The notes under the pieces: generated by a model
Database searches by the model: none
Seen by the model: only the letters and a program-made list of their open reading frames with translations
Told to the model about the DNA's origin: nothing
From: Caldithrix abyssi
GTDB taxonomy: Bacteria > Calditrichota > Calditrichia > Calditrichales > Calditrichaceae
Length of the DNA stretch: 64,000 bases
NCBI GenBank assembly: GCA_011369465.1
Contig: DRQG01000142.1
Location: 1 to 64,000, forward strand
Direction: 5' to 3'
Shown: positions 2,809-61,672 of the stretch, piece after piece
Position numbering within the stretch: position 1 is the first letter of the stretch
Layout of the letters: the number at the start of each line of letters is the position of its first letter
Position numbers and translations under genes: made by a program

Positions 2809-2952
2809 ACGCTGTTAAATTACCAAATTCCTACAGAGAACCGTTCCAAAGAGTTGCTCTGCATCTGTCGCAATAATTATATTTTGTTATGATGCCGTCC
2901 AGGATATATCCGCGTATCATAGTTTACATCCTAAAATATGTATAAAGTAAAA

Positions 2953-3068
2953 GAACCGAATAAATGTTCGCGCGGGTTAAATCATTTTCCAACCCATATC
3001 TGCTATAGTGCAGAAAAATAAGTCCCGCAGGGACGGAATGCCCTTAGCTCAACAAATTCATTTGTGGG
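2953..3068. repeat. Long dispersed repeat, copy A
   Basis: About 115 bp, running from AATAAATGTT through CGGGTTAAATCATTTTCC, CCATATCTGCTA and the palindrome GTCCCGCAGGGAC to CAACAAATTCAT. It closely matches 6102-6217 in the same orientation, at roughly 85% identity by eye. The two copies enclose the lipoprotein, Rhs remnant and putative immunity gene. Noncoding. Confidence 0.8.
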
Positions 3069-3432
3069 AAACAAATTCCGGCACCAAAATATACCCGTCC
3101 CGAACGGGACGGGATGAACATAGACCGCGAAATGCATTTGTGTGAACGGATTAATAATTGTCCCTTCGGGACAACATTTTTGATGGCGGGTAATTCATTT
3201 TTCCATATTTGAAAATATGGGCTATGAGCATCCCATCGCTACGCGATGTCCGGTAACGCGATCTGTCAATGCCGTCCCGGAAGGACGATATGCCCTTAAC
3301 TCACAAATTCAATTGTAAAAGCGCGAGCAGCCCGAGAATAGGGACAGTTCCGCCCGGTGGGACAAAATGAATGGGAGGCGCCTTCCACCCATTCATGAAT
3401 GGACTTGGTGCAAAAATCCCTGCTGGGATTTT
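3022..3432. repeat. Array of small perfect palindromes (REP-like)
   Basis: The 2809-3584 gap holds no gene. It has eight short hairpins: GTCCCGCAGGGAC at 3022-3034; a 9-bp stem CCCGTCCCG/CGGGACGGG at 3094-3113; TTGTCCC/GGGACAA at 3158-3174; CCATATTT/AAATATGG at 3203-3220; CATCGC/GCGATG at 3234-3248; GTCC/GGAC at 3274-3286; ATGAATGGG/CCCATTCAT at 3367-3396; AAAATCCC/GGGATTTT at 3413-3432. Several share a GTCCC...GGGAC core, as in REP sequences mobilised by IS200-like TnpA-REP proteins in other bacteria. No such transposase is in the window. Confidence 0.8.
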
Positions 3433-6052: not shown

Positions 6053-6101
6053 TTTTTGTCAAACGGAAAAGATTGTGTCCATAATTTTGTGTAAAAACAA
6101 A

Positions 6102-6217
6102 GAAACCAATAAATGTTTACTCGGGTTAAATCATTTTCCAACCCATATCTGCTAAAGTGCAATAAAATAAGTCCCGCAGGGACGATATACCCATAGCCCA
6201 ACAAATTCATCTGTGGA
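6102..6217. repeat. Long dispersed repeat, copy B
   Basis: Matches copy A at 2953-3068 in the same orientation, including CGGGTTAAATCATTTTCC, CCATATCTGCTA, GTCCCGCAGGGAC and CAACAAATTCAT. The copies are about 3.15 kb apart and border the Rhs-containing segment. It ends just before the stop codon of the minus-strand PAP2 gene. Confidence 0.8.
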
Positions 6218-6229
6218 AAGGTGAGCTGC

Positions 6230-9238: not shown

Positions 9239-9850
9239 GTGTGGTTATCGATGCATAGTACATTATCCGATAAAAATAAATCATTTCACGAAAAGTCAGA
9301 TCATTCAGCCCTGATCAAAAATATCCGAAAAGGCGATGCTTACGCCTTCCGTACATTGTTTAAAATGTATTACAAACCGTTGGTCAGATATGCTCAACGA
9401 TATGTGCGTACAACCGAAGCAGCCGAAGATATTGTGGGAGACATATTTTTAAAAATCTGGGAGAAACGAGCCCGGTTAGATATTAAGACCAGCGTTAAAG
9501 CCTATTTATTTAAAATGGCGCACAACGGGGCACTCAATTATTTAAAAAGCAAGCGAATGGAACCTGCCGACTTATTTTATCTGAATCTTTCTTTGCAAAG
9601 TAATCTGTTAACGGATGAAACCATACATGCAGATGAGCTGAAAAAGCATATTGAACAGGCGATTACCGAGTTACCCAATAGAACCCGTGATGTATTTACC
9701 ATGCACCGTTATGATAATTTAAAATATTCGGAAATTGCCGAGATTTTAAATATAAAGGAAGGAACAGTGGAAACACATATGGTACGGGCGTTGAAATATC
9801 TTCGGAAGCGATTGGCTTTTCTTTTGTCGGTTATTCCCATTTTTTTATAA
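9239..9850 (+). CDS. ECF RNA polymerase sigma factor, FecI-like
   Basis: A 203-residue protein. A GTG at 9239 follows GGGATAA closely; an ATG at 9251 is the alternative start. Region 2 is visible at residues ~25-90 (LIKNIRKGDAYAFRTLF, AEDIVGDIFLKIWEKR) and region 4 at ~140-195 (ELPNRTRDVFTMHRYDN, YSEIAEILNIKEGTVETHM, a helix-turn-helix). These are the hallmarks of Bacteroidetes-type ECF sigma factors paired with FecR. The anti-sigma gene follows after 64 nt and an STN-type TonB receptor after that, so it most likely transcribes the receptor and perhaps the redox genes behind it when surface signalling releases it from FecR. Confidence 0.92.
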   Translation: MWLSMHSTLSDKNKSFHEKSDHSALIKNIRKGDAYAFRTLFKMYYKPLVRYAQRYVRTTEAAEDIVGDIFLKIWEKRARLDIKTSVKAYLFKMAHNGALNYLKSKRMEPADLFYLNLSLQSNLLTDETIHADELKKHIEQAITELPNRTRDVFTMHRYDNLKYSEIAEILNIKEGTVETHMVRALKYLRKRLAFLLSVIPIFL

Positions 9851-9914: not shown

Positions 9915-10967
9915 ATGGAATATTCGGAATATATAAATCTCATTATAAAACAGCTATCCGGCACTATTACTCCGGATGAAAAGAAAAAATTAAATCATTG
10001 GCTGGAATCAGATAGCGAGAATAAAAAAACTTTGGCTTTGTTCAAACAAATATGGCATACCCGGCAGGCAGAAAACGGTTTTGTGGATTTACAATCCGCC
10101 TGGGCCGGTTTAGCGGAAAAGGCAGGGATTTCTTTGCCGTATGAGGAACTACGGGAAAAGCCTGCTCGTCTACAACTCCCCCGACAGGATAGTGTAACCA
10201 AAATAGGTTATCGTATTATGCGTTATGCTGCGGTTATTTTAATCACTGTTTCCCTGGTCTATTTTTGGGGACGTTCGGCGCACGAAGCTCCGAAAGACGG
10301 GCTGCGGGAAATTTTTGTTCAATACGGTAAACAAAACAGTGTTACACTGCCGGACGGGTCGCAGGTTACATTGGATGCGGGTAGTAAATTGCGGTTTGCC
10401 GAAGGATTTGGAAGAAAGAGCCGTGAGGTTTATTTAAACGGGGAAGCCTATTTTGAAGTGAGTCACAATGAGCTTAAACCTTTTATTATTTATGCCAATG
10501 GAGGTGTGGTTACGGTTTTGGGGACCAAATTTAACGTACGTGCTTGGCAGCTCAACGATCGGGAAGTGCGGGTTGTTGTGGTGGATGGCAAAGTATCCTT
10601 TCGCCATAAATCACAGAGGCAAAATTCCGCCGTGGTGGTGAGTAAAGGTAAAATGAGTTATCTGGCTTCTACGCATCCTCAACCAAGTAAGCCCATAAAA
10701 GTTGATATCGGAAAACATCTTGCCTGGATGAACAGAGAGTTGATTTTGGATAACGCACCTTTAAACGAAGTGTTGGACCGTCTTGCGCGCTGGTACGATT
10801 TACAGTTCAAATTACCCAGTCCGTTATATGAAAAAGTAAAGATAACAGGAAGTTTTAAGAAAAAATCGATTGGTTATATATTGCAGGCTATTGGACTCAT
10901 GACTCAAATGGATTATAAGCAGGAAGGTAAAACGGTTGTTTTCTACAAAAGGAAAACGACCTTATAA
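9915..10967 (+). CDS. FecR family anti-sigma regulator
   Basis: A 350-residue protein with AAAGG ahead of ATG 9915. Residues 1-95 form the cytoplasmic sigma-binding part; a single membrane helix lies at about 101-119 (IMRYAAVILITVSLVYFW). The periplasmic FecR domain spans ~130-235 with the marker VTLPDGSQVTLDAGS and GEAYFEV. The C-terminal DUF4974 domain (~265-345) includes LILDNAPLNEVLDRLARWYD and ends with YKQEGKTVVFYK. This arrangement is the standard inner-membrane relay that senses the STN domain of an outer-membrane receptor and controls its sigma factor. It lies between the sigma factor (64 nt upstream) and the receptor (223 nt downstream, with a large hairpin in between). Confidence 0.93.
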   Translation: MEYSEYINLIIKQLSGTITPDEKKKLNHWLESDSENKKTLALFKQIWHTRQAENGFVDLQSAWAGLAEKAGISLPYEELREKPARLQLPRQDSVTKIGYRIMRYAAVILITVSLVYFWGRSAHEAPKDGLREIFVQYGKQNSVTLPDGSQVTLDAGSKLRFAEGFGRKSREVYLNGEAYFEVSHNELKPFIIYANGGVVTVLGTKFNVRAWQLNDREVRVVVVDGKVSFRHKSQRQNSAVVVSKGKMSYLASTHPQPSKPIKVDIGKHLAWMNRELILDNAPLNEVLDRLARWYDLQFKLPSPLYEKVKITGSFKKKSIGYILQAIGLMTQMDYKQEGKTVVFYKRKTTL

Positions 10968-11009
10968 TACAACAACAACGCCCTAAATCATAACGTTAGA
11001 TTAACCACA

Positions 11010-11132
11010 AAAAGAGCCTGATTGCTAAGCGGGGATTGATGCAGCAATTCCCGTAATGGGGATGTATTGCCAAAAATATTTTTTCCGGGATGCAGGTTGC
11101 TGCATCAATCTGCTGACCGGGCAGGTTCTTTT
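11010..11132 (+). promoter_or_regulatory. Long two-stem hairpin in the leader of the TonB receptor gene
   Basis: An outer stem pairs AAAAGAGCCTG (11010-11020) with CAGGTTCTTTT (11122-11132), 11 pairs with one G-U. After an asymmetric internal loop, an inner perfect 14-bp stem pairs GATTGATGCAGCAA (11034-11047) with TTGCTGCATCAATC (11097-11110). The 49-nt apical part contains a further TCCC/GGGA pairing. The element lies between fecR and the receptor and ends 58 nt before the receptor's start. It has no T run, so it is not an ordinary terminator; it matches no riboswitch I know. Confidence 0.6.
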
Positions 11133-11190
11133 GAAGAGTTAATCTTTCTTTCCGGTAAAATCCAGCTAATAAAAAAAGGGGAGGCATCTA

Positions 11191-13929
11191 ATGAAAAAGA
11201 GACCTTACATATTTTTCGTTGCACTGCTTTTGTTGTTTATTTTAAGCGGGTTATCGTTTGCTCAAAATCCCAATAGCTTAAAACAATTGCAAAAACGAAT
11301 TACATTGCACATGGAAAATGTGCCGCTAAACAAAGTATTGGATAAAATTCAGGAACAGGCAAATATTCAATTAGTGTTCAGTGAAACTTTTATCCCCGCC
11401 GACCGCATTGTATCAGTGGATTTTAAAGATGTACCTGCGGGTGAGGCTTTAAGAAAAGTATTAGCGCAAACATCAACAGATTATAAAGTTACAGGCGGTG
11501 GACAGGTGGTACTGGTACCTTCGGAATCCGGCGCAGGAACCAATGGCAGCAATTCATCAAGCGGCACCATAGCCGGGCTTGTATATGACAGCGAAACCGA
11601 TAAACCGCTGGCAGGTGCCAATGTATTTTTGGAAAATACATCTTTTGGGGCAGCTACGGATGAAGAAGGAATGTTTATTATAAACAATGTTCCGCCGGGT
11701 AAATATACAGTTGTTGTAAACTACATTGGTTATTCCCAAAAAAGTACTATAATTACTTTGGAAGCAGGCGATAAGGTAAAACTCAATTTCGCATTGCAAC
11801 AGAGCCTTATGGATCTGGATGAAATTGTTGTTACCGGAAGCCGCAGTGGGAAGGAAAAACGGGCACTGGCAAGTCCGGTTACGATTATTTCCGAAAACGA
11901 TTTGAAACTTATGCCGATTGAGGATATGCGTGACTTGTTTGAAGGGAAGGTGCCGAGCGGATATAGTTTGGATATTGGTTTTACGAATAGAAATCGTCAG
12001 ACCATTGCTTTGCGCGGCAGTCAGGTTTTTACCACATATAACAATACTGTAAAAACCTATATTAACGGAGTGGAAGTGGCTGATTATGGTTATAGTCCTT
12101 TGGCGTCGCTAGATTACAACGATATCGAAAAGATAGAAATTTTGCGTGGACCGATGGCCTCTACTCTATACGGTTCGGGCGCCAGTGGCGGTATTATCCA
12201 AATTTTCACCAAAAAAGGAAGCGGCGGCAGAACCAGATTTAATTTCAGGGCGTACGGGGCGGCAACTTCTACACCCTGGGTGGATAAAACCCCATACAGT
12301 CAGAATTATTCGTTGAATCTTTCCGGCGGTTCCAGTGTAAGAAATTATAAAGTTAGTTTATTACGTTCCATTGCCGACCTGCCTTATCCGAATAACGGTG
12401 TTAAAGATTCAAAATGGCGTCTGAACGGTAGTATAGGGCTAACCAATGGTCCTCTTACCATGAATGTTGAGGCCGGATTCGGTTCGAGTGTTTACGGATC
12501 GGTAAATAATCCGCTCTTGCTGAAGTTGAAGGAAGAAAGAGGCTGGACCAACGCGCCTTCTTCATGGGATAAAATACGTGACCGTCAATATACCAATACC
12601 AATCAACTGGCCAATATTCAACTACGTCATATCATTACATCTAACTGGTATCAGAAATTAACCCTGGGATACAATAAAACAAAGATAAAGAATAATTCAC
12701 GCTCGCCGGATTTGGTTTGGTATTTCGACCCGGATTCGGGATGGACGCAGGTTGAAAAGTATTATTATCTGAATCGTTCCTGGACCAAACGTTCTTTAAA
12801 TTATCTTACAAACGCAAAATTGGGGATAGGAAGCGATATTACGGCGGATTTAACAGCCGGTATCGAACATACGATTTCGGATGTTGATTATCTGAATGCA
12901 AATTTAGATGTTAACCCGGAAGTGGTTAGGGCATTGGCACTGGATAACGGTCTGGTTACCAATTATCAAGATATAAATACAGGCTATTACGGAGAGGCGG
13001 TATTTGGATACAAAAATTCGCTTTTTTTAACAGCCGGATTGCGATTGGAGGATAATAGTAATTACGGGGATGAATACGGATTGGATAAAAACCCGCGGGT
13101 CGGCCTTTCTTACGCATTCGAATTTGATAATTTTCAAATAAAACCACGTGCTTCCTGGGGAAAATCCACTAAGGCGCCTTTGATTACGCAGAAGGATTAT
13201 CAGGAATCCGCCTATGCCATTTTCTTAGCCAATCCCGATCTGGGACCGGAAACCCAAAGCGGTTATGAAGGCGGAATCGATTTATATTATGGAGAAATAT
13301 TTTCGTTTGAAGTAACCTACTACGATCAAATGGTAAAGAACGGTATTACACCTATCAATGTGGATAATCCGGATACGCCGAAAAGGGAATATCAATATCA
13401 AAACATAAATGAATTTTTTAATAAGGGTTGGGAAATTGCCGGTAAAGTTCTTTTAAACCCCTTTACAATTAATTTTACATATTCTTCCACAGACAGCAGA
13501 TACGGCGAAAACCAAAGCTCTGCAAACTGGAAATATAAAAACGGAGCTAAAAAACTTTATACTCCTCAAAGCACCGCCTCGTTAGGTATCGGATATAAAG
13601 TGCCTGCCTTTATCCCAGGATCGTATAAAGGCGGTTTCGTCGGATTGGATGTAATGTACACGGGTAAAATGCTGGTGGATAACTATTTACGATTGTACGA
13701 TGGCTTTTATAATCCGGATATACCAAGATTAGATCCCAACGATCCCGAAAATTTAAAATGGAAAGATGCCTTTTATAAAATTCGTTTACGCTTAAACTAC
13801 TGGTTTACAAACTATTTGTCCGTTTTTGTTGATGTGGTAAATCTGACCGACTATCAGGATGGTGCGTATAATGAAATTACTCCGGCGGTCGGACGCGTAA
13901 CGAAGTTCGGGTTGGATATTCAGCTATAA
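11191..13929 (+). CDS. TonB-dependent outer-membrane receptor with STN signalling domain
   Basis: A 912-residue protein with a strong GGGGAGG before ATG 11191 and a signal peptide (MKKRPYIFFVALLLLF...SFAQ). Residues ~33-108 are an STN (secretin/TonB short N-terminal) domain, LHMENVPLNKVLDKIQEQAN; ~127-205 a carboxypeptidase-regulatory-like beta domain, GLVYDSETDKPLAGANVFLE; ~208-345 the plug, starting DEIVVTGSR and containing IEKIEILRGPMASTLYGSGA; the rest is the 22-strand barrel ending FGLDIQL. The STN domain fits signalling to the FecR protein encoded just upstream. The substrate is unknown; both iron-chelate and polymer importers share this plan. The following gene, a TlpA-like lipoprotein, is separated by a strong terminator. 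Confidence 0.93.
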   Translation: MKKRPYIFFVALLLLFILSGLSFAQNPNSLKQLQKRITLHMENVPLNKVLDKIQEQANIQLVFSETFIPADRIVSVDFKDVPAGEALRKVLAQTSTDYKVTGGGQVVLVPSESGAGTNGSNSSSGTIAGLVYDSETDKPLAGANVFLENTSFGAATDEEGMFIINNVPPGKYTVVVNYIGYSQKSTIITLEAGDKVKLNFALQQSLMDLDEIVVTGSRSGKEKRALASPVTIISENDLKLMPIEDMRDLFEGKVPSGYSLDIGFTNRNRQTIALRGSQVFTTYNNTVKTYINGVEVADYGYSPLASLDYNDIEKIEILRGPMASTLYGSGASGGIIQIFTKKGSGGRTRFNFRAYGAATSTPWVDKTPYSQNYSLNLSGGSSVRNYKVSLLRSIADLPYPNNGVKDSKWRLNGSIGLTNGPLTMNVEAGFGSSVYGSVNNPLLLKLKEERGWTNAPSSWDKIRDRQYTNTNQLANIQLRHIITSNWYQKLTLGYNKTKIKNNSRSPDLVWYFDPDSGWTQVEKYYYLNRSWTKRSLNYLTNAKLGIGSDITADLTAGIEHTISDVDYLNANLDVNPEVVRALALDNGLVTNYQDINTGYYGEAVFGYKNSLFLTAGLRLEDNSNYGDEYGLDKNPRVGLSYAFEFDNFQIKPRASWGKSTKAPLITQKDYQESAYAIFLANPDLGPETQSGYEGGIDLYYGEIFSFEVTYYDQMVKNGITPINVDNPDTPKREYQYQNINEFFNKGWEIAGKVLLNPFTINFTYSSTDSRYGENQSSANWKYKNGAKKLYTPQSTASLGIGYKVPAFIPGSYKGGFVGLDVMYTGKMLVDNYLRLYDGFYNPDIPRLDPNDPENLKWKDAFYKIRLRLNYWFTNYLSVFVDVVNLTDYQDGAYNEITPAVGRVTKFGLDIQL

Positions 13930-13964: not shown

Positions 13965-13998
13965 AAATAAATAGCCCAATTCTTTGGGCTATTTATTT
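13965..13998. terminator. Perfect 15-bp bidirectional terminator
   Basis: AAATAAATAGCCCAA (13965-13979) pairs with TTGGGCTATTTATTT (13984-13998) around a 4-nt loop. The AT-rich outer arms give a T run in either direction. It lies 35 nt after the receptor stop codon and ends 24 nt before the TlpA-like gene. Confidence 0.85.
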
Positions 13999-14022
13999 AA
14001 TCTTAAACGAACAGAGGACAAA

Positions 14023-15876
14023 ATGAAAAGAATTGTATTTTTTCTTGTCTTTTTAGTTTTTCTACTATTTCTGGGGTGTGAAAAAGAATTACCAAAACAT
14101 AGCCATGTGGAAATAAAACCTAGTAACCCACAGCCCAATCAATCATTTACCGTTATTTACACACCCGGCGTTGTTAGTCCTTTGGCAGATTCCGACAGTG
14201 TTACTCTACAAGTGCTTTTTATCCCCCGTACACCCACCGGCAGGGAAATTCTGGAAAAGGGAGTGATCAAAGAGATTCCTATGCATCGTAAAGGGATAAG
14301 CTGGCAAGCCGGTATTAAATCTACCGAACAAAGCGGTTGTATCGAATTGCAGTTTAAGTCAGGCGATAAATTGGATAATAATCGGAACAAGGGTTGGGAT
14401 GTTCTACTATATGATGCCAATGGAAAGCCGGTTGAAGGCGCTTATTCCGCTCTTTCTCAAGCTTATGGCGATGGCATAGTTTCCTTTTTAATGGGCCTTA
14501 AAAAATTTAACGCGGACACTGCCATGGTGCTTTTTCGTAAAGAATTGGAATTATATCCCGAAAACCGGCGTGCCCGGGTAGTAAGCATTCATTTAAGATA
14601 CGGCAAAGCAGTTAAAGAAAACGATAAAAAAGGTATTCGACAATTGGCCGATGAATTGTCTGCCTATATCAAGGCGTATCCGCAGGATATTAAGGTTCTG
14701 GAACTGGCTTATACATTTTTTTATCGTACCGATCCGCAGAAGGCTAAAAAAGTTTTGCAGAAAATAGAAAAACTGGATGCCGGGCATCGTTATGTCTTAA
14801 GTAATAAGATGAAGAGCATTCGCAAAATAAAGGATATAAAACTACGCGTAAAAAAGCTGTCTTCTTTGGAATTGCAGGCCGGGAAGTCGGATTCATATTT
14901 TACATGGTCGGGTTATATGTTGGATAATTTGTCCGCCTTGCAAAGGTGGGACGCTGTGATAGAGCTTGCGAACAGAGTAATAAAAAAGCTGGAAACGAAT
15001 TTTCCCGTTTATCCGTCGTATTCAAGAGAAAAAATACAGAAAAGTAAACAATCGAAATTGTATGTTCCTCTTAAGGCACTGGCTGTAGCATATCACAAAA
15101 CAGGGCAGGAGACAAAGGCTGAAAAATCCTACGATAAATTGCTCAAACTACATGTTTATCCGCACCAACGGGTCGCTTTGCTGGAAGACTATATTCAATT
15201 TCTGATAGACACCCGGCAATGGGATAAAGCCGCGGATACGGCGCTGGAGGCCATCAAAACGGCGAACGCCAGTGAAAAAATAGAAAATCTGTTTAAAAAG
15301 GCATACCTGGAAAAAACAAAAGATGCCGAAACTGCTGAGCAAATGATTCAAAAAGCAAAACAGGCTAGCGGCGCATACCGTAAAAAAGAACTTGCCAAAA
15401 CTATGATAACCGATCCCAAACCGGCACCGCAGTTTACTCTGCCCACTTTGGATGGAAAGGAAATCTCTTTGGCGGAGTTACGTGGAAAAACCGTCATCGT
15501 CGATTTTTGGGCCACCTGGTGCAGTCCCTGTAAAGCATCTTTTCCATTTTTACAAAAATTTTGGGAACAACATAAAGACGACCCGAATCTGGCGTTGTTT
15601 GCGGTAAATACACGCGAACAATTAAAAGGTGAAAAAAGAGTTAACTCAATAACGAAATTTATGCAAACCAATGGTTATACCTTCCCTGTTTTGCTGGATG
15701 ATACTGAAAGTAGTGTAATGAAAGCCTTTGAGGTAGGTGGCATCCCAACAAAATTCTTTATTGGCCCGGATGGGAAAATATATTTTAAGGAAATCGGCTT
15801 CCATGGTCCGGGTATGGTCGAAGATATGAACTTACAACTGGAATTGATTCGGGAAAAAATGAACTCGCTCTTTTAG
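14023..15876 (+). CDS. TlpA-like thioredoxin lipoprotein with long TPR-like region
   Basis: A 617-residue protein. ATG 14023 is chosen because AGAGGA precedes it and the product begins with a lipoprotein signal (MKRIVFFLVFLVFLLFLGC, lipobox LFLGC). Residues ~30-130 look like a beta-sandwich (ITLQVLF-type strands); ~150-460 are helical repeats of TPR character (ALSQAYGDGIVSFLMGLKKF; AVAYHKTGQETKAEKSYDKL). The C-terminal ~140 residues are a TlpA/ResA thioredoxin fold: APQFTLPTLDGKEISLAEL, then VDFWATWCSPC with the redox pair at Cys500/Cys503 and GGIPTKFFIGPDGK with the cis-Pro region. It probably reduces disulfides in envelope proteins, fed by the DsbD encoded next. It may depend on the upstream sigma factor, though a terminator intervenes. 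Confidence 0.88.
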   Translation: MKRIVFFLVFLVFLLFLGCEKELPKHSHVEIKPSNPQPNQSFTVIYTPGVVSPLADSDSVTLQVLFIPRTPTGREILEKGVIKEIPMHRKGISWQAGIKSTEQSGCIELQFKSGDKLDNNRNKGWDVLLYDANGKPVEGAYSALSQAYGDGIVSFLMGLKKFNADTAMVLFRKELELYPENRRARVVSIHLRYGKAVKENDKKGIRQLADELSAYIKAYPQDIKVLELAYTFFYRTDPQKAKKVLQKIEKLDAGHRYVLSNKMKSIRKIKDIKLRVKKLSSLELQAGKSDSYFTWSGYMLDNLSALQRWDAVIELANRVIKKLETNFPVYPSYSREKIQKSKQSKLYVPLKALAVAYHKTGQETKAEKSYDKLLKLHVYPHQRVALLEDYIQFLIDTRQWDKAADTALEAIKTANASEKIENLFKKAYLEKTKDAETAEQMIQKAKQASGAYRKKELAKTMITDPKPAPQFTLPTLDGKEISLAELRGKTVIVDFWATWCSPCKASFPFLQKFWEQHKDDPNLALFAVNTREQLKGEKRVNSITKFMQTNGYTFPVLLDDTESSVMKAFEVGGIPTKFFIGPDGKIYFKEIGFHGPGMVEDMNLQLELIREKMNSLF

Positions 15877-19294: not shown

Positions 19295-19487
19295 CGATGC
19301 CATCGCTCCAAGCGATGGCATCGGGTTTCCCCGCATTTAAAATATTGTTATTGTTTTAACGTGTATGGGCTCTGTTAGACCTTCCAGGTCTCTCAGACCT
19401 GGAAGGTCTGTAAGTGTGCCTTGCCGGATAGGCAAGTTTATTCTATAGGTTGTATAACCGATTCCATCGCTTAAAGAAATGGAATCG
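19295..19487. repeat. Cluster of four unrelated perfect hairpins (REP-like)
   Basis: The 391-bp gap 19233-19623 has no gene but holds CGATGCCATCGCT/AGCGATGGCATCG (19295-19323, 13 bp, 3-nt loop); AGACCTTCCAGGTCT/AGACCTGGAAGGTCT (19377-19409, 15 bp, 3-nt loop); CTTGCC/GGCAAG (19420-19436); and CGATTCCAT/ATGGAATCG (19459-19487). The stems differ in sequence, so this is a collection of distinct small palindromes rather than one repeated unit. The first may end transcription of the redoxin gene. Confidence 0.75.
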
Positions 19488-22374: not shown

Positions 22375-22525
22375 TCGGAGGCTGAGCATTTCGGCAGGCT
22401 CAATACAACGCCTGTCGAAGTTGGTAGTCCTTTTCGGTAAACTCTGGATCCGGAGGCTGAGCTTATCGAAGCCGATAGTTCTCTTCAGCAGAGCTCACCC
22501 TTCGACGGGCTCAGGGTTCGATGTA
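22375..22525. repeat. Dispersed GGCTGAGC/TTCGAC repeat, first locus
   Basis: The gap before the ferredoxin gene holds CGGAGGCTGAGC twice, then TATCGAAGCCGATAG, GAGCTCACCCTTCGACGGG and CTCAGGGTTCG. The same words, in the same order, recur at 52981-53110. No gene lies here. Confidence 0.75.
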
Positions 22526-22568
22526 GATAAGTGGTGGCAAGGTGCGGATGAAATAGTATGAGGAAAAA

Positions 22569-44338: not shown

Positions 44339-44889
44339 AAAAGAAAAATGGGCAAAGGAATGGAATGAATTGATGAATCAATGAATTGTTGAATTAGTGG
44401 ATAATTGGAGTGTTGGAGTAATGGAGTGATGGATTGATAATAAAAACCATTACTCAATCCACTCTAAAAAGGGTGCTGCGAATAAAATGTCATTCTGAAC
44501 CCTGGCCTGACGCCAGGACAGGCTCGTTTCAGCATCTTATGTTTATGGCAAGGGATTCCGGAACAAGTCCGGAATGACGCCAAAAGTGGGAATGACGCCA
44601 AAAGTCATGCTGAACTTGTTTCAACATCTTGTGTTTATGGCAAGGGATTCCGAAACAAGTTCGGAATGACACCAAAAGTGGGAATGACGCCAAAAGTCAT
44701 GCTGAACTTGTTTCAGCATCCCATGTTTTATGGGGCAGGATTCCGGAACAAGTCCGGAATGATTTCTACAAACTTTTTAGAGTGGACTCATTACTCCATC
44801 ACTCCGATACTCCAATCACAGGCACAATCGCACCAATTCATCAATTCATACCATTTCTCCGTTTCACCAACAATATTGTGATTTTGTCT
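44339..44889. repeat. Composite repeat block with converging arms
   Basis: No gene is supported in these ~550 bases. The left part (44355-44445) has GAATTGATGAAT and TTGGAGTGTTGGAGTAATGG; the right part (44775-44862) has the reverse complement of the same words (ACTCCATCACTCC, ATTCATCAATTCA). ATCCACTCTAAAAA (44457-44470) is matched by TTTTTAGAGTGGA (44776-44788). The block thus has inverted ends around the 92-bp tandem repeat described next. Confidence 0.75.
44541..44770. repeat. 92-bp tandem repeat, two and a half units
   Basis: The word GTTTATGGCAAGGGATTCC begins at 44541 and 44633, and a diverged copy begins at 44725, giving an exact 92-bp period. Each unit holds an inverted repeat of the ATTCCGGAACAAGTCCGGAAT kind and CATGCTGAACTTGTTTCAGC. 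The motif resembles a widespread repeat family of this bacterial group. It creates a false in-frame extension of the nitrilase gene. Confidence 0.8.
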
Positions 44890-52196: not shown

Positions 52197-53273
52197 GGGC
52201 AACTATGACGATGGATGTTCCTGTATTTCCATGGTGTTTTCCTTGCACTAAATAAAATAAAGTTCGTCTTATTTTTTACGGGAATTGCCCTGCACTGTAA
52301 ATTCGCTCCTCCGGCAGGATGTAGTGTAAGAATATATTTTCGATCATAGGTTCTTTTGGTAAATGTAAGTGTAAATATATTTCACCTGCGCATACAATAG
52401 TTGATCAAATGCTATTATAAGGCGCACAAAACGATTTTAATCCCACAACCAAAGTGATCGGTTGATGTTATCATTCCTTATGAATCAGTGGGCTATAGTC
52501 ATATTCCCATGTGAGAAAATAAGAGTCGAAATAATCAATGAGGCATAATACCAACGGATTAATCCTCGCGGCTTAGTGGTTTTGCGTGATCTTTTAAATT
52601 GTTGAAGTGGACGGGCTTGTAAAATAGCGTTCTTATTGATCATTCCGTTGCGTACCCTTCGACAAGACTTCGGCCTGAGCACAGCCGAACGCCCGTCGAA
52701 CTATGACGCGGCGGTGATCATCGCAAGCGTGTCATCCTTCGACCCCGACACGTCGGGACAGGCTAAGCTCAGGATGACATTGGGGCTCAGGATGATAATA
52801 TAGCGTCATGGTGAGCAGTCCCGCTACTGGCGGGACGTGTCGAACCAGGACGCGGACTTAGTCGATACTTCACAGATAATTCTGTCACCCTTCGACAGGC
52901 TCACCCTTCGACAGGTTCAGGGTTCGACCCCGCCGATTCGGGACAGCCCACATAAATCTGGACAGGCAGAGCTTAAAGTTCGGAGGCTGAGCGTTCGACT
53001 GATCCCGCCCGGGCGGGACGAAGTCCCGTCGAAGCCGATAGGTCTTTTCAACAAAGCTCACCCTTCAACAAAGCTCACCCTTCGACATGCTCAGGGTGCG
53101 GTAGGCTCAGGGTTAGACGGAGTTTTGATGATTCTTTGTTTATAACTGCTTAGGTTATTCTCTTCCCGCTTGATACATTGCCAAATTTGTAGCATATTCC
53201 AAAAAAGACAGCCAATTTAAAAGTACGCTACATAAATATCACCATTTTTGCGCAGAAAAAAGCGGAGTGAAAT
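52197..53273. repeat. Long gene-free gap with dispersed repeats
   Basis: No gene is supported over ~1.08 kb; frames such as 52485-52682 on the minus strand have no family features. From 52660 the sequence is a patchwork of CCCTTCGACA, AGGCTCACCCTTCGACAGG, CTCAGGATGACA and GTCCCG palindromes, including CCCGCCCGGGCGGG at 53007-53020. The piece 52981-53110 (CGGAGGCTGAGC ... GAAGCCGATAGG ... AAGCTCACCCTTCGAC ... CTCAGGGT) matches 22450-22525. The first part, to 52480, is AT-rich and unremarkable. Confidence 0.75.
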
Positions 53274-61529: not shown

Positions 61530-61549
61530 ATTCCAGAGCCGGATAGAGA

Positions 61550-61672
61550 GGATGGAATTGGTGAATTGATGAATTAATGGAATAATGGAGTGCTGGAGTT
61601 GTGGAGTATTGAGGTGGCACAGATCATAGAATGCAGCAATCCATTACTCCTGTACTCCATCACTCCTGTGAA
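61550..61672. repeat. Low-complexity inverted-arm repeat before pdxS
   Basis: The left side reads GGAATTGGTGAATTGATGAA and GGAGTGCTGGAGTTGTGGAG; the right side (61640-61672) reads CCATTACTCCTGTACTCCAT, the reverse complement of the same words. It is a further member of the GAAT/GGAG family of converging arms. Confidence 0.6.

Follow-up and report, generated by a model that had tools for sequence, protein, structure and literature searches.

TonB-dependent receptors linked to FecR and an ECF sigma factor are usually seen as being regulated at the initiation of transcription. The cobalamin riboswitch of btuB lies in the leader of a TonB-dependent receptor mRNA, and Lussier and colleagues reportedly concluded in 2015 that a kissing loop matters for its function. 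The lysine riboswitch combines a closing stem with hairpins whose loops interact, whilst in the HIV-1 DIS hexaloop hairpins kiss and can then refold to an extended duplex. A closing stem and hairpins with interacting loops are also described for the guanine riboswitch (PMC5480868), as is the joining of hairpins P1 and P2 of the guanidine-II riboswitch by kissing loops (PMC9300104). At the post-transcriptional level, SusC-like TonB transporter mRNAs in Bacteroides are controlled by FopS sRNAs and RbpB (PMC11697453). Here we analyse a structured receptor leader in a 64,000 nt stretch of Caldithrix abyssi DNA (contig DRQG01000142.1; hereafter 'the window'). A word search found no paper naming riboswitches in this phylum, and searches of open-licence PMC papers gave no report of this element, the latter being a weak negative.

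The operon comprises, in order, genes for a TIGR02985-type ECF sigma factor, FecR, a TonB-dependent receptor and a TPR/TlpA-like protein, the last called from a TTG start with an ATG present at 14023 (Table 1). Receptor orthologues sharing 68-74% identity were detected in three other genomes (G031, G006 and G008) out of 60 searched initially, and in all three the four-gene order is kept and the ECF sigma orthologue adjoins the receptor; no further orthologues were found at E <= 1e-80 among 385 genomes. The sequence closest to the window's receptor is that of G031 (74%), and those of G006 and G008 resemble each other more closely, at 82% identity. The receptor falls below every curated NCBIfam cut-off shown, that of the TonB-B12 model by a wide margin.

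Table 1. Features of the receptor leader and its flanking genes, in window coordinates.
Feature	Coordinates	Strand	Basis or remark
ECF sigma factor gene, TIGR02985 type	9239..9850	+	NCBIfam TIGR02985 165 bits (cut-off 126.4); Pfam sigma-70 r2 and r4
fecR, anti-sigma/sigma regulator gene	9915..10967	+	Pfam FecR and FecR_C
Possible ECF-type promoter, AAC-N17-CGT	10974..10996	+	inferred by eye from sequence and alignment
Outer closing stem, 5' strand, AAAAGAGCCUG	11010..11020	+	
P0 5' strand, AUUGC	11021..11025	+	could pair with 11053-11057; by eye; absent from the window's computed folds
P1 5' strand, GGGGAUUG	11031..11038	+	
14-bp inner stem of the initial annotation, GATTGATGCAGCAA (11034-11047) with its reverse complement (11097-11110)	11034..11110	+	alternative extended duplex, window only
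P1 hexaloop, AUGCAG	11039..11044	+	invariant; complementary to the P3 loop
P1 3' strand, CAAUUCCC	11045..11052	+	
P0 3' strand, GUAAU	11053..11057	+	by eye
Near-invariant GUAUUGCC (GUAUURCC), foot of P2	11064..11071	+	alignment
P3 5' strand, GCAGGUUG	11092..11099	+	
P3 hexaloop, CUGCAU	11100..11105	+	invariant; kissing partner of 11039-11044
P3 3' strand, CAAUCUGC	11106..11113	+	
Outer closing stem, 3' strand, CAGGUUCUUUU	11122..11132	+	terminates in UUCUUUU
Shine-Dalgarno of the receptor, GGGGAGG	11178..11184	+	sequence
TonB-dependent receptor gene (STN, CarboxypepD_reg-like, Plug)	11191..13929	+	domain matches; orthologues
TPR and TlpA/ResA-like thioredoxin-fold protein gene	13984..15876	+	conserved next gene

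Between fecR and the receptor lie 223 nt, within which the initial annotation placed its structure (11010-11132), and the four loci with this receptor all have gaps of roughly 190-230 nt (about 226 nt in G006, from locus coordinates). The FecR_C domain had 36 matches, in 20 of 40 genomes of the phylum, and 23 loci were examined. Two of the 23 have no callable next gene; in 15 of the 17 other loci no more than 95 nt precede the start of the following ORF, which lies further away in L115 (187 nt) and L130 (159 nt). At the 5' end of the window's gap is the putative ECF-type promoter, with AAC-N16-CGT as its counterpart, likewise identified by eye, in G006 and G008; it would place the start of transcription near 11003.

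Two inverted repeats had been recognised in the gap, and both are present as first described: the 14-nt arms are exact complements, and the outer stem has 11 pairs, one of them G-U. The minimum free energy fold lengthens the latter through AGAUUAAC/GUUAAUCU (10998-11005 with 11138-11145). On the forward strand the folding energy is -64.2 kcal/mol, compared with -44.0 kcal/mol for shuffled sequences (z -4.7; 0/200 as low); the reverse strand likewise has a stable fold (z -3.7), which a palindrome would lead one to expect. The view that the 14-bp repeat is unlikely to have arisen by chance is borne out by a count of perfect 14-nt arms with 3-100 nt between them, of which the 64 kb contain three sites (five arm pairs, two sites being double-counted because of a register shift), whereas shuffles average 0.14. 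At the other two sites, the arms are only about 4-6 nt apart. A perfect inverted repeat of 14 nt or longer, with a short gap between its arms, lies at 19377-19409.

The structured leader is therefore real, yet its 'conserved-looking' character holds for a different fold. In the window, G006 and G008, which represent three genera of one family, an element of about 93 nt sits in the gap that follows fecR and precedes the orthologous receptor gene. It is kept in three of the four close orthologues, counting the window's, whereas the 14-bp stem itself is not conserved. All three sequences can fold into a hairpin P1, a middle hairpin P2 with the GUAUURCC motif at its foot, and a hairpin P3. The hexaloops of P1 and P3 are invariant and perfectly complementary (all six loop pairs in each of the three sequences), and have a palindromic UGCA core. 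In the gaps of G006 and G008 the motif reads GATGCAGC-N18-GTATTRCC-N27/28-CTGCATMAA. With the loops in brackets, the hairpins of G006 are AGAACCG(AUGCAG)CGGUUUU and AUGGUUA(CUGCAU)AAACCGU, a closing A-A being unpaired, and those of G008 are CAGGACUG(AUGCAG)CAGCCCUG, with one A-C mismatch, and GGGGUUU(CUGCAU)AAAUCUC. P2, at about 11064-11090, is weak in the window and strong in G008 according to the folds, and the place of P0 is taken by CCUGUC/GACAGG in the computed fold of G006 and by CUGCUC/GGGCAG in that of G008. An H-type pseudoknot using only the 3' CUGCAU strand was considered for the loop pairing, and was dropped in favour of kissing hairpins once the P3 stem had been recognised. The 14-bp duplex excludes both P1 and P3, and exists because these two hairpins are mutually complementary in the window only.

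The two-hairpin arrangement was scored using a model of 22 pairs (seven in P1, six between the loops, two in P2 and seven in P3), giving 66 cells over the three sequences. Of these, 97% are paired, falling to 33-46% when the partners are slid by one to three columns, and seven of the 22 pairs have changed on both sides, compared with a mean of 2.7 after shuffling and none of 500 shuffles reaching as high. A covariation search in relatives had been proposed when the 14-bp stem was described; the two-hairpin element covaries, but in the 14-bp model only 79% of cells are paired, no pair out of 14 shows two-sided changes and six deviate through unpaired cells. When arms were exchanged between species, the best partner of each 5' arm was its own 3' arm in all six rows. 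By column the native pairing wins in four of six, since G008 P1 and G006 P3 each have a 3' arm that pairs slightly better with the window's 5' arm. These stem changes that preserve pairing show, at the level of sequence comparison, a conserved, covarying structure in cis. The loop-loop pairs are the same in all three sequences and hence have no covariation support, so that kissing rests on complementarity and invariance. A scan for pairs of hairpins with six complementary loop bases recovered the window and G006, with none of 200 shuffles as good; G008 was missed because of its P1 mismatch, and the leaders of G031 and L072 contained no such pair.

Fourfold degenerate sites of the receptor genes are near saturation, with the window matching its relatives at 28-35% of them and G006 matching G008 at 43%, whereas the core of the element is 53-64% identical, with 39 of 94 alignment columns invariant and both loops intact. 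Hence the element is under selection, rather than conserved through recent ancestry. The independent depth of the comparison is modest, as there are three sequences and G006 and G008 are closer to each other.

The distribution of the element is narrow. A looser three-part motif occurs in three of the 40 phylum genomes, once in each and always before the receptor, with no occurrence of a reversed-pattern control. A CM built from the three sequences (R1) scored 95-99 bits at its training loci and 24 bits at the next match in the 40 genomes, whilst a second with P3 added (R2) gave 95-101 bits at the same three loci among 385 genomes and 21-22 bits at the other three with E <= 0.01; since each model necessarily recognises the sequences it was built from, what counts is how far the next matches fall behind. 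The top-scoring weak R1 match falls inside a coding gene, and the eight inspected of the 44 weak matches listed look chance-like, judged by their neighbouring ORFs. G031, despite having the closest receptor, lacks the element, and the best score in it and two Melioribacteraceae genomes was 14.9 bits; the Melioribacteraceae, which are more distant, lack it too. It is therefore dispensable for the gene. Rfam 15 had no matches in the 64-kb window, in line with the earlier statement that cobalamin-box sequences are not seen, and permissive searches with the four orthologous loci and with 10965-11195 gave only unrelated matches far below the gathering scores. A pattern scan of viral contigs and a blastn search of plasmids were both negative. 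By these comparisons the element is new, in that it matches no catalogued RNA family and is narrowly distributed.

The large imperfect palindrome might also suggest the remnant of a mobile, REP- or MITE-like inverted repeat inserted between fecR and the receptor, as the initial annotation had offered. This reading is the least probable of those considered, and very nearly discounted: the element is present in a single copy in its own 4.3-Mb genome (E <= 0.001), the relatives carry it at the orthologous place only, and its stems covary. Other repeats do occur in the window. Two copies of a 142-nt sequence, 84% identical and 3.1 kb apart, are found at 2929-3070 and 6078-6219, and 92-nt direct repeats, 93% identical and with a third partial copy, at 44523-44762; an array with a period of 8 bases lies near the latter (44358-44439) and recurs at 61546-61619, and dispersed short repeats around TCACCCTTCGACRGGCTCAGGGTTCGA are found at 22466-22538 and 52869-53118.

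Different structures occupy the equivalent position in more distant genomes. Full-length relatives of the receptor are found in five of 79 Melioribacteraceae genomes, and the six readable leaders share another hairpin, so structured gaps between fecR and receptor genes recur in different forms. This hairpin, approximately RAGCCRTGACAATG-N5-GATTGYCAYGGCT with R/Y compensatory changes, is located in the last 110 nt or so ahead of the receptor gene in L140-L144 and, as a variant, in L138, and has no Rfam match. In L140, L141, L142 and L144 it is preceded by a very short ORF that has its own GGAGG-like site (for example MIVT*, MIAN*, MKQK*; by eye). Further along the window's operon, a strong hairpin AAATAGCCCAA..TTGGGCTATTT (13965-13998) separates the receptor and tlpA-like genes, and is also found, with changed loops, in G031, G006, G008 and L072; it is predicted to be a conserved intercistronic hairpin of the terminator-like or processing kind.

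The last two observations indicate that intergenic hairpins are used in these operons, the receptor-tlpA gap having one in all four, and are compatible with the leader being an intercistronic processing or insulating element that sets relative mRNA amounts without sensing, its outer stem and UUCUUUU weakly terminating transcription or halting an RNase. A plain insulator, however, would need neither invariant hexaloops nor GUAUURCC, and a consensus terminator scan of the window, G006 and G008 placed no site at the element in any of these sequences, with nothing on either strand at 11010-11132, in keeping with the original assertion that this is not a terminator. We regard this explanation as unlikely, though it ranks next after a sensing leader.

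The outer stem itself is significant against shuffles in two of the three sequences. As a native duplex it has an energy of -23.7 kcal/mol in the window (1/1000 shuffles as low) and -22.8 kcal/mol in G006 (3/1000), far better than the -5.7 and -7.6 kcal/mol obtained when their strands are swapped. That of G008 (-14.0 kcal/mol) is not significant (654/1000), and the 5' strand there forms a more stable duplex with the partner from G006 (-17.6 kcal/mol) than with its own. Although the stem finishes in UUCUUUU, about 100 nt lie within it.

The hairpin fold matches the optimum in G006 and G008, where it is more stable than a nested loop-loop helix by 15 kcal/mol and 6 kcal/mol respectively. For the window, a leader with the hexaloops free has an energy of -59.2 kcal/mol, against -62.3 kcal/mol with the 14-bp duplex, and the core alone -29.3 against -37.4 kcal/mol; a nested energy model, from which kissing energy is left out, thus favours the duplex by 3-8 kcal/mol. 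The six loop-loop pairs would contribute about -6 kcal/mol as a free duplex, a figure that does not include the docking cost, such that on these models the docked and duplex forms of the window may be close in energy. The predicted pairing of the Shine-Dalgarno sequence is identical in both conformers. Since the ribosome site is predicted to be equally accessible, its direct occlusion is less favoured than a read-out that uses the outer stem and the U-rich stretch. The suggestion that the structure may control the receptor keeps its general sense, a cis-regulatory role being rated likeliest. It may alternatively be a stand-alone small RNA.

The AUG in the P1 loop could open a short ORF, raising the idea of attenuation through a leader peptide. 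AUG CAG is invariant, and the window has GGGG 4 nt before the AUG, yet the ORF measures five codons in the window and 17 codons in G008, whereas in G006 it continues in frame into the receptor; no peptide is conserved, and the stems covary as RNA. It was rejected on the differing ORF lengths and lack of peptide conservation, and we consider it highly improbable. In G006 (L033, 1348 onward) the frame of this AUG reaches the receptor gene without a stop, and an automatic gene caller could stretch the receptor N-terminus into the leader.

Trans-acting partners are a further explanation, in which the exposed complementary, UGCA-containing loops form a landing site for an sRNA or RNA-binding protein, or mediate dimerisation of the mRNA. 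Short invariant hexaloops with a palindromic core suit pairing in trans; FopS sRNAs are described as repressing translation of SusC-like transporters (PMC11697453), and the guanidine-II riboswitch as oligomerising (PMC9300104). As the two loops are perfectly complementary within one leader, an explanation in cis is simpler, and we think partners in trans improbable, placing them just after the plain intercistronic element.

The likeliest reading, which we hold to be on balance probable, is that the element is a riboswitch-like leader, narrow in distribution, that regulates an ECF sigma- and FecR-linked receptor operon in cis. Transcription would start from the ECF-type promoter near 10974-10996, and 10998-11145 would encode a structured leader at the 5' end of the receptor mRNA. 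The two hexaloops would pair with one another and, closed by the outer stem, form a compact docked domain, which would act in cis as a sensor of a small ligand, an ion or a protein to adjust expression of the TonB receptor, a layer atop the ECF sigma/FecR switch encoded just upstream. Read-out would proceed via the outer stem and U-rich stretch, at the level of elongation, processing or decay. In the window species, where P1 and P3 have become mutually complementary, the docked form would compete with the 14-bp duplex, and the switch in this lineage may be bistable or decaying. A more specific proposal, that kissing-hexaloop leaders of this uncharacterised TonB receptor, linked to ECF/FecR and partnered by a TlpA-like protein, constitute a new riboswitch-like class that senses the imported substrate or its product, and that in the window the leader toggles between the docked fold and the 14-bp duplex, is put forward tentatively, as being rather doubtful.

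If the leader does function in this manner, a conserved kissing-loop structure would add an RNA layer to the ECF/FecR switch, and would offer a handle on what the orphan receptor imports. The locus also illustrates that the fold of a single sequence, here with a perfect 14-bp stem, can mask another structure whose conservation becomes visible only when relatives are compared.

Amongst known RNAs, the HIV-1 DIS is a parallel for hexaloops that can kiss or extend into a duplex, although its dimer is intermolecular and the element's interaction would be intramolecular. The element shares with the btuB riboswitch its position before a TonB-dependent receptor gene, but has no Rfam cobalamin match, and the receptor scores only 87 bits against the TonB-B12 cut-off of 599.7. 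FopS and RbpB act in trans, whereas the conserved structure of the element is in cis. The closing stem and interacting hairpin loops resemble those of the purine and lysine riboswitches, from which the element differs in helix number, loops and conserved bases, and in having no Rfam match to them. Like the guanidine-II riboswitch, it has two hairpins that would be joined by kissing loops; unlike it, these are the hexaloops AUGCAG and CUGCAU, forming six pairs, with a middle hairpin and an outer closing stem, in the context of a TonB receptor gene and with no Rfam guanidine-II match.
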